Part shown: one piece after another, positions 6,254 through 11,713 of the stretch
Layout of the letters: each line of letters starts with the position of its first letter
Position numbering within the stretch: position 1 is the first letter of the stretch
Source of the DNA: a virus
IMG/VR virus record: IMGVR_UViG_3300010151_000131
Location: 1-26,077 of that record
Direction: 5' to 3' (one strand)
Length of the DNA: 26,077 bases
Translations under genes and position numbers: made by a program
Notes under the pieces: generated by a model
Seen by the model: the letters and a program-made list of their open reading frames with translations, nothing else
Databases searched by the model: none
Told to the model about the DNA's origin: nothing

Positions 6254-7450
6254 TCACCCTGTGAATATTGTTAACCCATTTGGCATAGGTATAAGTTTTA
6301 ATAAACGATTTAAAGCCTCGGCTTCATCAGCTGCGCTAGCAATTAATGCGTTATAAGTTAACTTTCCCAATTGTTCTCTTAATTGTGTTTTTAATGTCTC
6401 TTTTTCCCCTTGGCCTTGAGCAACCAATTCGGTCCCATTAAGATTAACTTCTCCACCAGGTATAGGAACTGAACCAAACTTACTTCGTACATAACCCAGC
6501 AATTCCTTTGATAACGCAATTGCATATTGTCGAATCCATTGTCGACCCATAGAGTTAATATACTTATAAGTAAGATGACCAAACGGCACATTTGATGTGT
6601 TACTTACTCCATATAATGAGTCATCTGTATATCCTGGTTTAAAAGGATCTGCACCCAATAAGACACGCATCCATAGTCTTTTTGGCTCATTTGATGTAGG
6701 TTTTGGGTATATTCGAATATTTGTTCCTATAATTTTATATGAAAAATTTGAACGACGAACACGATTTGACATATTCATCATCCCGGCGCGAAGGACATCT
6801 TCAAAAACAGGTAATACATAAAATACGGTTTCTGGAGTGTATGATTCAAATGGGAATTCATTTGCCATATAGTTCGTTGCAGATGTTGTACTAAAAAACC
6901 GATATGCATCTTGAGGGTTAAAATGGAAAACTTCGGTGATTTTCATTTTTGTTTTTGACCCTACATCTTGTGTATCAAATAATATGTCACCGGCACTATT
7001 TTTTAAATCTGTGTATATATTATAATCCTGCACACCCTTGACTAACTCAATTGAACCACTAACTTGATTATAATCACCACCCGTATTTGCTTCCGTTGAA
7101 TATGCTGCCGCCATTCTATTAACAAAGCTGTGATTAAAACGTTGTAACATTGACTCTTTGCCATGTGGGCCCACATTAAAACTACCAGATGTCTCTGATC
7201 CTGTTGCAAACCCTAGCATGTTTAATAATGAGCTTTCAGCCTCATGCATATTAATAATTGAACTATATTCAAGCGTTGCCTCTTCAAAACATGCCCATAT
7301 TTGTTTTTTCGTTAATTCAACTGAAAGAATATCATCACCCAGCTTTCGCTTAATAAATGTGATTATATTATCGGCCTCCGTTTGGAACCCGGTATCAGCG
7401 TCATAAAACCCAAATGGTGTGGGGGCTGTTGTGTTAGCGAATGTTGTCAC
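6254..7450 (-). CDS. Neck protein, gp13-like (GTG start)
   Basis: 398-aa protein placed directly before the gp14-like and gp15-like genes. The N-terminal domain reads PFGFYDADTGFQTEADNI, then TFIKRKLGDDILSVELTKKQ and IWACFEEATLEYSSIIN. This 'f.k.rLG.pvi.vELt..qi..c..eA' pattern is a recurring head-to-tail connector / neck pattern in T4-like marine and jumbo myoviruses. In T4 the equivalent position is gp13. The middle is Ser/Thr/Gly-rich, and the last ~130 residues are helical (YINSMGRQWIRQYAIALSKE, then LGYVRSKFG). The start is GTG at 7450, since no ATG lies near the conserved N-terminus; a GAGAG run lies upstream. A 14-nt gap separates it from the preceding 76-aa gene. Confidence 0.6.
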   Translation of the reverse strand: MTTFANTTAPTPFGFYDADTGFQTEADNIITFIKRKLGDDILSVELTKKQIWACFEEATLEYSSIINMHEAESSLLNMLGFATGSETSGSFNVGPHGKESMLQRFNHSFVNRMAAAYSTEANTGGDYNQVSGSIELVKGVQDYNIYTDLKNSAGDILFDTQDVGSKTKMKITEVFHFNPQDAYRFFSTTSATNYMANEFPFESYTPETVFYVLPVFEDVLRAGMMNMSNRVRRSNFSYKIIGTNIRIYPKPTSNEPKRLWMRVLLGADPFKPGYTDDSLYGVSNTSNVPFGHLTYKYINSMGRQWIRQYAIALSKELLGYVRSKFGSVPIPGGEVNLNGTELVAQGQGEKETLKTQLREQLGKLTYNALIASAADEAEALNRLLKLIPMPNGLTIFTG

Positions 7451-7464
7451 GCTTTAAGCTCTCA

Positions 7465-7695
7465 TTATTTTTTAGTACGTGAACTAGTTCTCTTTGTAGA
7501 TTTGGGTTTAAGAGTTTTTGTTACGGGTTTTTGAGTAGGCTTAATCGGTTTGATTGCAATAGCCTCAACGATAGGCTCAGGTATAATAACTGGTTCTACC
7601 TCAACGATAGGCTCAGGTATAATAACCGATGTCACTTTTTTTGTCTTTTCATTCTTAATAGCAAGAATTCTTTTCATTCTTAATCGACGACTCAT
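7465..7695 (-). CDS. Small basic Pro/Lys-rich protein with internal repeat
   Basis: 76-aa protein of unknown function. It has a basic N-terminus (MSRRLRMKRILAIKNEK), a repeated VIIPEPIVE segment (two copies), and a Pro/Thr/Lys-rich basic tail (KPTQKPVTKTLKPKSTKRTS). No fold is evident and it is probably disordered. The two peptide copies are encoded by a perfect 28-bp direct repeat (7563-7590 and 7599-7626). A GAGGAAAG SD lies a few nt before the ATG. It opens the neck-gene block just after a terminator-like hairpin. The composition would allow DNA binding or decoration of another protein, but this is inference only. Confidence 0.7.
   Translation of the reverse strand: MSRRLRMKRILAIKNEKTKKVTSVIIPEPIVEVEPVIIPEPIVEAIAIKPIKPTQKPVTKTLKPKSTKRTSSRTKK
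7563..7626 (-). repeat. 28-bp perfect direct repeat, 36-bp period, inside the 76-aa gene
   Basis: Identical 28-bp copies lie at 7563-7590 and 7599-7626, separated by 8 bp. They keep frame (36 bp = 12 codons) and encode the repeated VIIPEPIVE peptide. The perfect DNA identity suggests a recent in-frame duplication. Confidence 0.9.
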
Positions 7696-7719
7696 ATTTC
7701 TTTCCTCATTTTAAAATAT

Positions 7720-7756
7720 ATATCCAAAAATATATGGACTCACATAGAACCCATAT
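7720..7756 (-). terminator. Rho-independent terminator-like hairpin after the 85-aa gene
   Basis: On the minus strand ATATGGGTTC - TATGT - GAGTCCATAT forms a 10-bp stem (7732-7756) with two G-U pairs, followed by ATTTTT. On the plus strand the same two positions would be A-C mismatches, so the hairpin favours transcription in the minus direction. It lies 28 nt past the stop of the 85-aa gene and 37 nt before the next start. Confidence 0.6.
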
Positions 7757-7783
7757 TAAACGTTAACAACTAAATTAACATTA

Positions 7784-8041
7784 TTATTCCACTGGGGCCC
7801 AGCACAGCTCGGAACCTAATTCCTGCCATGTGAATTCACCGGGCAAAGGATTTTCATCTGGTCCTGTTGGCCAATTTGGGTCTTGTGGGTTTGGTTCCAT
7901 ACCTAATGACATAACAAAATCATTTAATGTAACGCCAAGTGTTGGCATGGGCATCTCGAACTCAGTAGACGTCTCGGCTGGGAGATTATACTCAACTATC
8001 AAACGCTGACCTGGATCAAGCTTTATAACAATGTCTTCCAT
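7784..8041 (-). CDS. Hypothetical acidic 85-aa protein
   Basis: Unknown function. The protein is acidic and rich in Pro, Glu and Asp. The N-terminal half (MEDIVIKLDPGQRLIVEYNL) could form beta strands; the C-terminal half has PNPQDPNWPTGPDENPLPGE and ends ELCWAPVE. No membrane segment or known motif is seen. It has one of the best SDs in the window (AAGGAG, 7 nt from the ATG), which suggests strong translation. It lies 29 nt downstream of the nuclease-methyltransferase stop and before the hairpin at 7732-7756, so it may share that transcript. A regulator or partner of the methyltransferase is possible but not supported by any motif. Confidence 0.7.
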   Translation of the reverse strand: MEDIVIKLDPGQRLIVEYNLPAETSTEFEMPMPTLGVTLNDFVMSLGMEPNPQDPNWPTGPDENPLPGEFTWQELGSELCWAPVE

Positions 8042-8054
8042 AATATCACTCCTT
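8042..8054 (-). promoter_or_regulatory. Strong Shine-Dalgarno for the 85-aa gene
   Basis: AAGGAG (minus strand, 8054-8049) is followed by 7 nt (TGATATT) and the ATG at 8041. This fixes the start and contrasts with the weak site before the methyltransferase on the same presumed transcript. Confidence 0.75.
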
Positions 8055-8070
8055 ACTAGTAATATATAGG

Positions 8071-9624
8071 TTAAGTCTTTATAAAGATCAAAATGGGTTC
8101 AAATTTTTGTTTCGAAATGTTAATTGATTTTTCGTTCTTTTTAGAGAAATGGTCGCGACCAATCATTAATCTTAATTCTTCTTGTAAAATAAACCCAGCA
8201 TTAAGTGCCGTTGATATAATTGTTTCCTTATGTTTATGGCTTATATTAATAACCATAATGCCATTTTGTTTTAGAAAACTATGTGCAGTTAAAAATGTTG
8301 GTAAAAGATAATTTTTAACCCATACCTCAAGTGTATTATGATCTCGCCAACATTGACCTGGTTCATCAAAATATTGTTCAGTATCAAAATATGGTGGGCT
8401 TGTAAAAACTAAATCACCTACATTGTTATCCAGTTTTAATGTTTCACTACCCATATTATGTAATATAATATCACCATCAAACATATTCGCTTGATGTATT
8501 TCATTTTTTAGTTGTGTTAAGTTTTCGAACGTTTCCTTTGCTGGATCGGTACCAATATATTTTCCGTTTTGGCATGCCGCAACAAACGCTAACATTCTTG
8601 CACCAAAACCCATTGAAGGATCCCAAACAATAGGCTTAAGGATATTATCGCAATATTTTGTATATATGTGGTACGCAACTGTTGGCTTAAACCATGATAC
8701 AGAGGCACGCTGTACAACAAACCCACGAACTAAATTAAATGGCGATATATCAAACGTCTCATTTCCCGTCCATTTTGTACCATCATCAAGTATGTATGTG
8801 TAATCTTTTGAATTGTTCAAGCCTAGACGATAATCAATGACCTTCCCAAAGCGACGTGTATTAAACCATAGCTTTGCGGGGCCCTTGTTAACATTCCAAT
8901 ATGACGTAAAAATTGACTTAAGATAATCATTGCCGATTCTTGTTAATGATGATATGTCATTATGGGTTAAATCGACTTTTCTTTCCCGTAACTTGGATAT
9001 TACTGACACTATTGTATCTTTTGTGGGATGCCGCCACCACCCATAGGTTCTAACATATTCTTGAAAAAATGTTATTAATACCGGTTTTAATATTGTTTCT
9101 GTATATTTTTTTCCTGGACCTTGTAGTGTTTCATCATTTAAACGTATTAATCTTGACCGGGTTATCAATGATTGTTTCGTTGTTTTAAACTGAAACATGC
9201 CATCTTTTTTGATATCACCATCAATTTGGGCATAATATGATATATCGATAAGATCTTTAATTGTTGAGGCGTTTTTAAGCTTTTGTTTATTCTCAATAGA
9301 CGTCTTAATTCGAATAATACTTTTTCCGGCATTAAGTGCTAACCGATTTTTAAGCATATCATTTGCCATATTGTTTATTTGTTGACTTGTAAAGTTGTTT
9401 ATTTTATCTTGGGCATGCCAATAAACATTATTAAATTCTATTAACAAATTATGGCTTGGAATGTTGACGTCATAACATTTTAAATAACCGTCTACATTTA
9501 ACCAATAATTATTAGTTATTATTAGATTTGGAAATTGACAACTTAATATTTTATAAAAGGTAACCTCTAATATTTCGTAATAAGCAACCCCATGTTTTCT
9601 TTTCTTAACTGTATTTTGTTCCAT
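8071..9624 (-). CDS. Fusion: Vsr/EDxHD-type nuclease + SPPY DNA methyltransferase
   Basis: 517 aa in three parts. Residues ~40-115 look like the Vsr-like nuclease domain of EDxHD homing endonucleases: YDVNIPSHNLLIEFNNVYWH gives D52, E63 and H70, followed by the usual K-x-x-L-A-x-x-x-G-x-x-x-I-R-I block (LKNRLALNAGKSIIRIK). Residues ~195-262 (WWRHPTKDTIVSVISKLRER, then a SYWNV..GPAKLWFNTRRFG end) resemble the small DNA-binding repeats attached to homing nucleases. Residues ~330-500 are an amino-methyltransferase: motif I DPSMGFG (335-341, SAM binding), GTDPA (358-362), and motif IV TSPPYF (408-413), typical of N4-cytosine or N6-adenine enzymes. I use the ATG at 9624; a TTG at 9636 is less likely, and the SD is weak. 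The gene is clearly AT-rich beside the capsid gene, and has its own promoter. It could modify or cut DNA, or be mobile. Specificity cannot be read. Confidence 0.85.
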   Translation of the reverse strand: MEQNTVKKRKHGVAYYEILEVTFYKILSCQFPNLIITNNYWLNVDGYLKCYDVNIPSHNLLIEFNNVYWHAQDKINNFTSQQINNMANDMLKNRLALNAGKSIIRIKTSIENKQKLKNASTIKDLIDISYYAQIDGDIKKDGMFQFKTTKQSLITRSRLIRLNDETLQGPGKKYTETILKPVLITFFQEYVRTYGWWRHPTKDTIVSVISKLRERKVDLTHNDISSLTRIGNDYLKSIFTSYWNVNKGPAKLWFNTRRFGKVIDYRLGLNNSKDYTYILDDGTKWTGNETFDISPFNLVRGFVVQRASVSWFKPTVAYHIYTKYCDNILKPIVWDPSMGFGARMLAFVAACQNGKYIGTDPAKETFENLTQLKNEIHQANMFDGDIILHNMGSETLKLDNNVGDLVFTSPPYFDTEQYFDEPGQCWRDHNTLEVWVKNYLLPTFLTAHSFLKQNGIMVINISHKHKETIISTALNAGFILQEELRLMIGRDHFSKKNEKSINISKQKFEPILIFIKT

Positions 9625-9669
9625 TACAACAACCAATATCTTAAGTTTAAAATTACCCTATTTTAATAT

Positions 9670-9698
9670 ATTATATATTGGTTACAATGCATTTTCAA
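9670..9698 (-). promoter_or_regulatory. Sigma70-type promoter for the nuclease-methyltransferase gene
   Basis: Minus strand: -35 TTGAAA (9698-9693), a spacer of exactly 17 bp, and a consensus -10 TATAAT (9675-9670). Transcription would start near 9663, about 40 nt before the ATG at 9624. It lies after the capsid terminator and before the gene, in a non-coding stretch. It is the only close match to the host consensus I found in the window. Confidence 0.72.
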
Positions 9699-9719
9699 TA
9701 TACACACATAGTATGTCCT

Positions 9720-9760
9720 ACAAACAAAATGTGGGGATCATGGTTGCCCATGATCCCCAC
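9720..9760 (-). terminator. Strong terminator after the major capsid gene
   Basis: A perfect 13-bp stem (GTGGGGATCATGG / CCATGATCCCCAC) with a TTGC tetraloop lies at 9731-9760. On the minus strand it is followed by ATTTTGTTTGT. It sits 27 nt after the capsid stop. The stem is symmetric and could act in both directions, but the T-rich tail is on the minus-strand side. Confidence 0.9.
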
Positions 9761-9787
9761 AATATCACACTTAAGTAATATATACGT

Positions 9788-11713
9788 TTAAATGACGTTC
9801 ATATCAAGGATAGTAACAGTACCATAGAAGTCGGCGCGGACCAGCTTCTTACCATACCTTGTCATCACACCCTTACGTGGTGTGAAGTCTTCAGGCGCGA
9901 AGACGGTAGGAGTGACGATAAGTGGCACATATGGAGCATACACATACCCAGTTTCAAGGTAAGACCCACCTTTGTACCCAACAAGAACCTTGTTGCGTGG
10001 AAAGTAGGGATCCTTATAAACCGTGAATCGATTAGAAAGAGTACCAGCCTTCTCGGCACCAACATTAAATGGTGTAGCAACCTGGCCGTCAGCATTAAGG
10101 CTCAGAGTTGGTCGGTAATAAACCGAAGACTCGAGAATTGTTGCAACGTCCGGACCAACCACCATGAAGTTAGCGGATCCCCGAAGAGTCTTACGATGAA
10201 TGGTATTACCCACATCAATGCAAGTCTCAATCAAAGTCTCATACCAATCCCGAACAGTACCTGTGAAGGCCGGCCCTGGGGCTGTTGCACTAGAAGCCAG
10301 AATCTCCGTACCAGTCGCCCGATTAACGAATTTACCAGGCGCCCGTGACCAATAATAATTGGCACCGGATGCACCGAGCAGAAGGTCGTTAAGGATCTCA
10401 CGATCGATTTCCAACGCAATCTGCGAAGAAAGAATCTGTGTAAGTTCAACTTCAGCGTCGAGGCTATGATAGGCATTAAGGTCTTGAGCCAGTTCAGGTG
10501 ACCAACGGGCTCGTAACTTACGAGTGTCCGCAGTAACCGGAATGGATTCAACCTTAATATCAATCTCAGGAATCTCAGGTGATGGTGTCGTACCCAGATC
10601 AGATTCGAACGTAGGAATAACCAAGGTCTCGCCATTAGTTGACGTGAAGGTCGAATCCTGAACATAAGAAAGTGACACCGTACCCGCGGCGGTCGCGGCG
10701 GCGTTGGTACCAGATACAATAAACAGAATCCCATAATCATTCGATGTTGCAACATTAGTAATTGTTGACACCGGTGTAATACCTGTGACAGAGGCCCCTG
10801 AAGCGCCAGAAGGTGTAACCTGAACCAACTGGTTGAGTCGGCGAATATTAATCAGATTTGAACCTTGACCCTGAAGATTTGTAGAGACCGAACCATATGG
10901 TGTACCAGACGTTGCGAACACACCTATTTCTTTTACAGCAGTATAATCAATAGGTTTCGACGAAGCACTCACCGCATTGGCTTGTACCACAATTGCGGTG
11001 TAGCTATTGGCTGTGGACGCCGCGCCGTTTGCACCTTCGATTAAAGTTGTCAGTGTAGGGTCAAACTGAATTAACATGCCATCCGCACCGGTTGCATGCA
11101 AGGTTTCCCCAACATTCATTGCAGTACCTCCGGCAAACGCGCCAGAGGTCATCAGCGTCCCAGCATTCCAGCCGCTCGACAGACTCGCCGCATAGACACG
11201 AGAATATCCCGCACCAGCAAGGTCGTACATACCACCGGCCTGTGTCGCACCGGTTTGAACCGACTTACCAGCAGGGTTGCCATATATGGATGACCCACTA
11301 TTATACGTTGCATTATCAGCACCAGCCGACGATGCGCCCACCGCTGTACCATATGTGTAATCGATATAGAAGAGCAAGCCAGCAGGCAGGCTCATTGGTT
11401 GCACAGATACAATTTCATTAGCGACAAGACCGCCGAACACTCGACGAACAATCGGGAATGCAATATTACTGAACCCGCCAAGATCACCAGATGCCGTACC
11501 ATTGCCGCCGCCGGTACCAACGGTGGAACTCTCGCGAAGGGCCTGAGCCGCTTGGTTTTCCATAAGCACGGCCATGTTTTCGCGCTTCTGACCTTTAAGG
11601 CCTCGAAGCAAACCTGACCGGGACCACTTTTCAACAAGGCGGTCATTGTGCTTACCAAGGTGCCGTTGCCGGATCCCTTCGGTAAGCGAATTTAATCTAA
11701 AATCACGTGACAT
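9788..11713 (-). CDS. Major capsid protein, gp23-like
   Basis: 641-aa major head protein of the T4 gp23 type (HK97 fold in this family). The N-terminal region (MSRDFRLNSLTEGIRQRH, LVEKWSRSGLL) and the block GGFSNIAFPIVRRVFGGLVA, then NEIVSVQPMSLPAGLLFYID, are hallmarks of gp23. A gp21-type cleavage site, LRE61/S62, sits close to the T4 site (E65/A66) and would remove a ~61-residue propeptide. Residues ~125-390 are rich in Ala/Gly/Ser/Thr and make it longer than T4 gp23 (521 aa), probably as an insertion domain. The C-terminal part (PEIDIKVESIPVTADTRKLR, ARWSPELAQDLNAYHSLDAE) is conserved in the family. The SD is AAGGAGA, 7 nt from the ATG. GC is much higher than in neighbours, fitting strong expression. 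Confidence 0.97.
   Translation of the reverse strand: MSRDFRLNSLTEGIRQRHLGKHNDRLVEKWSRSGLLRGLKGQKRENMAVLMENQAAQALRESSTVGTGGGNGTASGDLGGFSNIAFPIVRRVFGGLVANEIVSVQPMSLPAGLLFYIDYTYGTAVGASSAGADNATYNSGSSIYGNPAGKSVQTGATQAGGMYDLAGAGYSRVYAASLSSGWNAGTLMTSGAFAGGTAMNVGETLHATGADGMLIQFDPTLTTLIEGANGAASTANSYTAIVVQANAVSASSKPIDYTAVKEIGVFATSGTPYGSVSTNLQGQGSNLINIRRLNQLVQVTPSGASGASVTGITPVSTITNVATSNDYGILFIVSGTNAAATAAGTVSLSYVQDSTFTSTNGETLVIPTFESDLGTTPSPEIPEIDIKVESIPVTADTRKLRARWSPELAQDLNAYHSLDAEVELTQILSSQIALEIDREILNDLLLGASGANYYWSRAPGKFVNRATGTEILASSATAPGPAFTGTVRDWYETLIETCIDVGNTIHRKTLRGSANFMVVGPDVATILESSVYYRPTLSLNADGQVATPFNVGAEKAGTLSNRFTVYKDPYFPRNKVLVGYKGGSYLETGYVYAPYVPLIVTPTVFAPEDFTPRKGVMTRYGKKLVRADFYGTVTILDMNVI

Follow-up and report, generated by a model that had tools for sequence, protein, structure and literature searches.

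A Vsr/EDxHD-type nuclease fused to an amino-methyltransferase behind the capsid gene of a T4-like phage, a candidate self-protecting homing element

What is a gene that encodes a nuclease and a methyltransferase in one chain doing directly behind the major capsid gene of a phage? The question is raised by the stretch of DNA analyzed here (the window, 26,077 nucleotides), a 26-kb piece of a T4-like tailed phage whose minus strand carries a series of genes for a RuvC-like resolvase, a primase, an SbcC-like protein, a terminase, a portal, a head protease, the major capsid protein, a neck protein, and a tail sheath. A preliminary description had placed the gene of interest at 8071-9624. These coordinates held and the strand is minus: the open reading frame runs from an ATG at 9624 to a stop codon at 8073-8071 and encodes 517 amino acids, and the plus strand of the same interval is crowded with stops. 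The fusion gene starts 164 bp downstream of a gp23-type capsid gene, in the following setting.

8071..9624, minus strand: whole gene, EDxHD nuclease-methyltransferase fusion, 517 aa; an in-frame upstream TTG at 9636 is a possible alternative start
9788..11713, minus strand: gp23-type major capsid protein gene, directly upstream of the fusion (phrog_138, 1.4e-69)
6254..7450, minus strand: neck/head-tail adaptor gene on the other side of the interval (phrog_211, 2.2e-11)
7451..9787, minus strand: variable interval (insertion hot spot) from capsid gene to neck gene; homology to relatives ends and restarts at its edges
7784..8041, minus strand: 85-aa ORF in the variable interval, without assignment, which may belong to the insert
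9730..9761, minus strand: strong intrinsic terminator of 14 pairs between the capsid gene and the fusion (terminator scan)
9670..9698, minus strand: near-consensus promoter-like TTGAAA-17-TATAAT (11/12) ahead of the fusion

It should be noted that promoter-like sites occur at chance frequency in this AT-rich stretch. A model of the whole chain was obtained with a pLDDT of 90.3 and a pTM of 0.85.

The preliminary description had read the protein as a Vsr/EDxHD-type nuclease fused to an SPPY methyltransferase, and both profiles and fold support this reading. The N-terminal half comprises the following features.

9235..9624, minus strand: Vsr/EDxHD-type nuclease domain, residues 1-130 (helix 19-30, strands 37-44, 47-55, and 60-65, helix 80-98, strand 102-107)
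9469..9471, minus strand: catalytic-type residue D52, invariant in an alignment of fusions and free-standing endonucleases
9436..9438, minus strand: catalytic-type residue E63, at least 90% conserved in the same alignment
9415..9417, minus strand: catalytic-type residue H70, invariant in the same alignment
9349..9360, minus strand: D89-M-L-K92, the second acidic residue and the conserved lysine; D89 is kept in the closer EDxHD fusions and K92 is at least 90% conserved in the larger alignment

D52, E63, H70, and the KNRLALNAGKSIIRI block were found where the preliminary description had placed them, and in alignments they correspond to the EDxHD catalytic positions of free-standing homing endonucleases and of the other fusions. 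The D, E, H, D, K pattern of EDxHD homing endonucleases is present in full (D52, E63, H70, D89, and K92); the usual D/N-G after the glutamate is replaced by N-N in the window protein. Residues 1-130 match PHROG homing/HNH endonuclease families (E 3e-8 and 3e-4), and a profile built from the nuclease domain and its relatives matches one solved structure well, the I-Bth0305I catalytic domain (PDB 3r3p, E 6e-8). The domain was folded separately because Foldseek with the whole model returned methyltransferases only. The resulting AlphaFold2 model (pLDDT 87) aligned best to Vsr (Z 9.0 for 1cw0 and Z 8.4 for 1vsr), then to I-Bth0305I (3r3p, Z 7.3 over 93 residues), DrdV (Z 6.7), and BpuSI (Z 5.3), whereas Foldseek alone on the domain gave E values of 0.02 or worse. 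The window protein has the Vsr-like catalytic fold of EDxHD homing endonucleases, and the possibility that its N terminus adopts a non-nuclease fold was not borne out, as residues 1-145 match the Vsr/EDxHD fold. A match to ribosomal protein L15e was dropped as a weak local similarity across the first strands.

A NUMOD or zinc-finger DNA-binding region is absent from the window protein, whose N terminus is the nuclease itself. Such a region is present in the related fusions of phage LR756508 (Pfam zf-C2H2 and NUMOD3) and IMG/VR locus L101 and was recognized by eye in L092 and L256. Because the window protein lacks this part of its relatives, it is possible that this copy is partly degenerate or that it uses the methyltransferase part for recognition. 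We therefore regard membership in the EDxHD catalytic-domain family as shown and do not claim it for the whole protein; cleavage and homing are inferred.

The remainder of the chain, residues 150-517, is the counterpart of an entire stand-alone phage methyltransferase, consisting of a helical domain of ∼155 aa and a class I domain.

8725..9177, minus strand: helical domain, residues 150-300, common to stand-alone phage methyltransferases of the same family (alignment, model)
8074..8724, minus strand: class I amino-methyltransferase domain, residues 301-517 (Pfam, model)
8596..8622, minus strand: motif I DPSMGFGAR, residues 335-343 (motif check)
8389..8406, minus strand: motif IV FTSPPY, residues 407-412 (motif check)

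The C-terminal half matches Pfam N6_N4_Mtase above the cut-off (E 7e-7), and motif I together with an (N/D/S)PP(Y/F) motif IV in a class I fold is what defines that group. The claim of a complete-looking amino-methyltransferase at the C terminus therefore held; DNA methylation itself is inferred. The best structural matches of this half are RNA methyltransferases (TrmN and Trm11), so the assignment of DNA as the substrate rests on the Pfam match and on a weak profile match to the modification methylase 2zie (E 0.0015). PADLOC "mads_2" matches were set aside as reflecting only the common methyltransferase fold. A full-chain match to a known restriction-modification family, which would have refuted the preliminary description, was not found in Pfam, PHROG, NCBIfam, or PADLOC.

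Relatives of the methyltransferase are common. One scan of IMG/VR returned more than 590 relatives, which is a lower bound, and nearly all of the 80 that were retained are about 340-390 aa long and lack a nuclease. Other additions to the same methyltransferase were seen in passing: an N-terminal ParB-like domain, recognized by eye, in L150, L152, and L170, and part of a T4-like RNA ligase 1 (Pfam RNA_lig_T4_1, 2e-10) in L029:6590-8062.

The fusion is not confined to the window. Among the phages of the annotated collection, the joining of a homing nuclease to this methyltransferase is limited to two uncultured ones with genomes of 484/485 kb (LR756508 and LR745208). The LR756508 protein consists of C2H2 fingers, NUMOD3, Vsr, and methyltransferase and lies downstream of gp23 and another endonuclease gene; the order capsid-(HE)-fusion recurs in L092, L093, L101, and L256. 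The LR745208 protein joins LAGLIDADG_2 (1.7e-38) to the methyltransferase and sits behind a capsid gene unrelated to the gp23 type. Direct IMG/VR scans with P0001 (the window protein) or P0006 alone returned no relatives and alignments were required, which yielded further EDxHD fusions (L092, L093, L097, L101, and L256), at least sixteen LAGLIDADG fusions, and a methyltransferase with a C-terminal NUMOD4-HNH_3 (L008). Homing-repeat proteins joined to the methyltransferase were found in L099 and L100, in which a PD-(D/E)XK-looking motif was read by eye, and a zinc finger joined to the methyltransferase without a nuclease in L088 and L259. The matches of the nuclease partners range from E 1.7e-38 to 4e-15 for LAGLIDADG_2 and reach 4e-15 for NUMOD4-HNH_3 and 4e-23 for the homing repeats. 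Two assignments are weaker: the L282 nuclease (EDxHD) was read by eye, and L163 was grouped with the LAGLIDADG fusions by position and by-eye similarity, as Pfam detects no LAGLIDADG there. A scan of chromosomes gave distant methyltransferases and no capsid-flank fusion.

The position of the fusions sets them apart from the rest of the family. A capsid gene is directly upstream in 29 of 32 non-redundant fusions (first-scan loci, later loci, the window, and the two uncultured phages) versus 0 of 92 stand-alone copies, the control being limited to stand-alone loci with enough upstream sequence. In the first scans, capsid-family HMMs detected a capsid gene at most 2.5 kb upstream of the fusion in 20 of 22 fusion loci, in most cases at less than 250 bp. 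Since these HMMs were built from fusion loci, other capsid families at stand-alone loci could have been missed. An independent PHROG tally of the upstream neighbors of 74 stand-alone copies found no major head protein among the 25 commonest families and instead returned replication genes, i.e., those for DnaB helicase, primase, clamp loader, and exonuclease. The capsid genes next to fusions belong to two mutually non-matching families, gp23-type and HK97-like (290-340 aa), and one methyltransferase clade spans both. The exceptions to capsid adjacency are L097, L008, and L282. L282 is a fragment, the upstream gene of L008 could not be assigned as a capsid gene (the same holds for L094), and the L097 fusion is ∼50 kb from its gp23 and adjoins a TnpB-like gene. 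This TnpB-like ORF (L097:3969-5303) immediately precedes the sole EDxHD fusion located far from gp23.

Comparison of the window with its gp23 relatives revealed that homology ends at the capsid stop codon and restarts at the neck gene. In the relatives, the gap between the two genes is either short or occupied, by unrelated genes or by an endonuclease. EDxHD endonucleases were found in 7 of 57 gp23 relatives, always 62-1000 bp downstream of gp23 and nowhere else in the fetched loci. A homing endonuclease occupies the site in at least 8 of the 57 and the fusion occupies it in the window, L092, L093, and L101; most relatives have no element, and the methyltransferase is absent from all 57 examined. 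Such scattered occurrence at one fixed position next to a conserved gene is expected of a free-standing homing element. The capsid proteins of the closest element-free relatives are only 72-78% identical, and insertion is therefore read from patchiness and not from near-identical pairs. The capsid gene at 9788..11713 is likely to be the neighborhood of the homing target, although the target itself is inferred.

Several other observations were made at these flanks. Most fusions begin just past an intrinsic terminator of the capsid gene, as in the window; the terminator scan found none in L105 and L157 and only weak ones in L110, L130, and L005. Between gp23 and the neck gene, L176:5250-6422 holds a 390-aa ORF with a tubulin/FtsZ-like GGGGGTGSA signature (by eye). 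An ORF of 250-330 aa with an FFKPMKVAGSS-like start, sulfotransferase-like by eye, recurs at the gp23 flank (behind gp23 in L208, L217, L224, L229, L231, L233, and L237, and at L088:7752). Gp23-type capsid genes are in tandem duplicate in L244, L245, L247, L248, and L203. Extra endonuclease genes lie between gp23 and the (zinc finger-)methyltransferase gene at L256:4324-5292, L259:4785-5771, and L088:5144-6142; they are of different kinds, with TnsA-like, DUF559, and DUF7487 repeats.

Fused and split versions of one pair exist at one locus. L008 and L094 share an upstream gene (50% identical), and the HNH that forms the C terminus of the methyltransferase in L008 is the next separate gene in L094 (44% identical over 173 aa). 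Behind the gp23 of L257, a zinc-finger-EDxHD gene, a second endonuclease, and the methyltransferase follow as separate genes, and the first of these aligns with the initial 395 residues of the L092 fusion. In L090, the order is gp23, endonuclease, small genes, and methyltransferase. All three split pairs (L094, L257, and L090) keep a full methyltransferase.

On a phylogenetic tree of the methyltransferases, one supported clade (SH-aLRT 95-99) unites the HNH and homing-repeat versions with all EDxHD versions other than L282, which was assigned by eye, and the LAGLIDADG-linked ones fall outside of it. The first tree made it seem likely that the EDxHD and LAGLIDADG fusions had separate origins; we do not claim this, as a single clade of all nuclease-linked methyltransferases was not rejected by the AU test (p 0.53). 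Within the supported clade, the nuclease is of the EDxHD, HNH, or homing-repeat/PD-(D/E)XK-looking kind and is located at either end. Based on the tree groupings and the fused and split pairs, we consider the methyltransferase to be the constant partner and the nuclease the exchangeable one.

Motif I is kept in 34 of the 34 nuclease-linked or nuclease-adjacent methyltransferases checked, and motif IV is the canonical TSPPY in 27 of them, the variants being TSIPY/TSIPF in four EDxHD fusions, TCPPY in two, and TSSPY in L104. The EDxHD-fusion subclade of LR756508, L093, L097, and L101 combines the TSIPY/TSIPF motif with a shortened methyltransferase C terminus. In two close pairs of LAGLIDADG fusions, dN/dS was 0.14-0.16 for the nuclease and 0.07-0.12 for the methyltransferase. 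Both halves are under purifying selection in these two pairs; the EDxHD fusions are not covered by this analysis.

Our current hypothesis, which we hold by a modest margin over its competitors, is that the gene is a free-standing (intronless) EDxHD/Vsr-like homing endonuclease gene at the capsid flank with a fused methyltransferase that plausibly protects its own site. The domain architecture, the fold, the catalytic-type residues, the position, the empty, otherwise filled, and endonuclease-filled sites, the recurrence with exchangeable nucleases, and the fused and split pairs are shown; cutting by the nuclease, methylation, DNA as the substrate, the target site, and the protective role of methylation are inferred. 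According to this hypothesis, the fusion would be expressed from its own unit behind the capsid terminator, and the nuclease part would cut the genome of an element-free relative during co-infection, at a site within the capsid gene or close to it. Repair from the element-bearing genome would then copy the element into the cut genome. The methyltransferase part would methylate the same or an overlapping site, with N4-cytosine or N6-adenine as the modified base predicted from the TSPPY motif, and the phage's own genome would be spared. Free-standing elements do not interrupt their target, and the genome that carries them is spared in some other way, usually by target divergence. A fused methyltransferase would be a direct way to spare it and would explain why nuclease and methyltransferase stay together despite changes of nuclease family. 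Such protection would let the element tolerate an uninterrupted target, and a single-site cutter would become a selfish modification-restriction unit.

The main rival, which remains possible, is that the methyltransferase is useful cargo: it would modify the phage genome against host restriction, and the phage would gain by keeping the selfish gene. In its favor, the methyltransferase family is widespread and often stand-alone, and so has a phage function without any nuclease, and the catalytic motifs are retained. However, cargo requires neither one chain with the nuclease nor frequent swapping among nucleases at capsid flanks, and the nuclease-linked copies are separate from most stand-alone ones on the tree. 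We consider it unlikely that the protein is a restriction-modification enzyme of the Type IIG kind that attacks co-infecting phages (or host DNA) and is kept by killing rivals rather than by homing. In favor of this, Type IIG enzymes generally combine a nuclease, a helical connector, and a methyltransferase in a single chain; the nuclease model aligns with DrdV and BpuSI, there are weak PADLOC Type II methyltransferase matches, and in one known case a phage homing endonuclease harms a competitor through interference competition (PMC11620839). Against this, the nucleases come from homing families (EDxHD, LAGLIDADG, and NUMOD4-HNH) with zinc fingers or NUMODs, no Type IIG profile matched in Pfam, NCBIfam, or PADLOC, and the location at a capsid flank has no explanation under this reading other than a target in the capsid gene. 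Nor does interference exclude homing.

Two further alternatives find less support. A methyltransferase domain that has lost methylation and merely provides the nuclease with DNA binding or targeting would fit the TSIPY/TSSPY variants in some copies and the lack of a separate DNA-binding domain in the window protein, but this reading is highly improbable in view of the retention of motif I in every copy checked and of the canonical TSPPY in most, the methyltransferase dN/dS values of 0.07 and 0.12, and the full methyltransferases of the split pairs. That nuclease domains invaded a methyltransferase gene as their target, as did the ShiLan element in an actinophage methylase, is the least likely of the readings. 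Homing endonucleases inside phage methylase genes do exist (PMC11855218), but the nuclease here is in frame at the N or C terminus, and the fused genes occupy capsid flanks, away from the replication-gene neighborhoods in which the stand-alone methyltransferases lie. Of the options that the preliminary description had left open, the selfish element with self-protection is thus favored over a general anti-host or anti-phage weapon, based on its location, its patchy occurrence, and the repeated presence of homing-type nucleases downstream of capsid genes; activity, target, and protection are all inferred.

The proposed self-protecting homing gene resembles several known systems in part. It shares the nuclease fold and the D/E/H/D/K pattern with the EDxHD homing endonucleases (I-Bth0305I, 3r3p) and Vsr, and its relatives also carry zinc fingers and NUMOD3; however, no described EDxHD member was found with a fused methyltransferase, and the window copy lacks the NUMOD/zinc-finger part and is not in an intron. 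The Seg enzymes of T4 are encoded by free-standing genes beside essential phage genes and spread by cutting element-free relatives in mixed infection, segD being located between genes 23 and 24 (PMC2988022), and phage HEGs are enriched near terminase, RNR, and capsid genes (PMC10448857). The window family has the capsid-gene flank, the patchy presence, and the clustering of several endonucleases at one site in common with these T4-type elements, but differs in its fused methyltransferase and in having EDxHD, LAGLIDADG, or HNH instead of GIY-YIG nucleases. Type IIG/IIL enzymes (BpuSI and DrdV) likewise consist of one chain with an N-terminal PD-(D/E)XK-like nuclease, a helical part, and an amino-methyltransferase. 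The window protein meets the one-chain criterion for Type IIG and not that of a chain-wide profile match, and the fusions differ in their exchangeable homing-family nucleases and phage capsid-flank position. The chain of the window protein ends with the methyltransferase, without a further domain; the role of target recognition domain could possibly fall to residues 150-300. The ShiLan element similarly associates a homing-type nuclease (HNH) with a phage methylase, but it is an out-of-frame insertion inside the methylase gene, whereas the window has two domains of one open frame at a capsid flank; according to its authors, no strong association of HNH enzymes with methylases is known so far (PMC11855218). 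The phrog_12517-like phage methyltransferases share the helical domain, the methyltransferase, and TSPPY, but are usually stand-alone, 350-360 aa long, and beside helicase, primase, and clamp-loader genes.

Homing endonucleases at capsid flanks, Type IIG fusions, and an HNH element in a phage methylase are therefore already known. What is new, within the literature searched, is a methyltransferase-fused free-standing homing endonuclease: no description of a homing endonuclease-methyltransferase fusion was found there, subscription papers being largely outside its scope, and the preliminary remark that no described system of this exact layout was known to its author held to the same extent. A bolder reading, which we put forward as a prospect and judge slightly short of probable, is that the window represents a broader class of mobile elements of phages. 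In this class, a single methyltransferase lineage would be paired, within one chain or as a neighboring gene, with homing endonucleases from four different kinds and would mark the genome of the element itself. Homing would then act as site-specific restriction-modification directed against capsid genes, and the elements would be living intermediates that connect homing endonucleases with restriction-modification systems.

The recurrence of the methyltransferase behind capsid genes with at least three other kinds of nuclease suggests a little-known class of mobile elements equipped with a modification enzyme of their own. In the common view, homing endonucleases are target-limited and decay after insertion or target mutation. 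If our hypothesis is true, the methyltransferase joined to the nuclease would keep the element safe without disruption of the target, which would alter its population dynamics, and selfish homing genes would be tied directly to restriction-modification in evolution. Because the pair exists fused, split, and with swapped nucleases, the idea of self-protection is open to direct test. Capsid-gene flanks emerge as a contested site at which phages may damage each other's capsid genes in co-infection.
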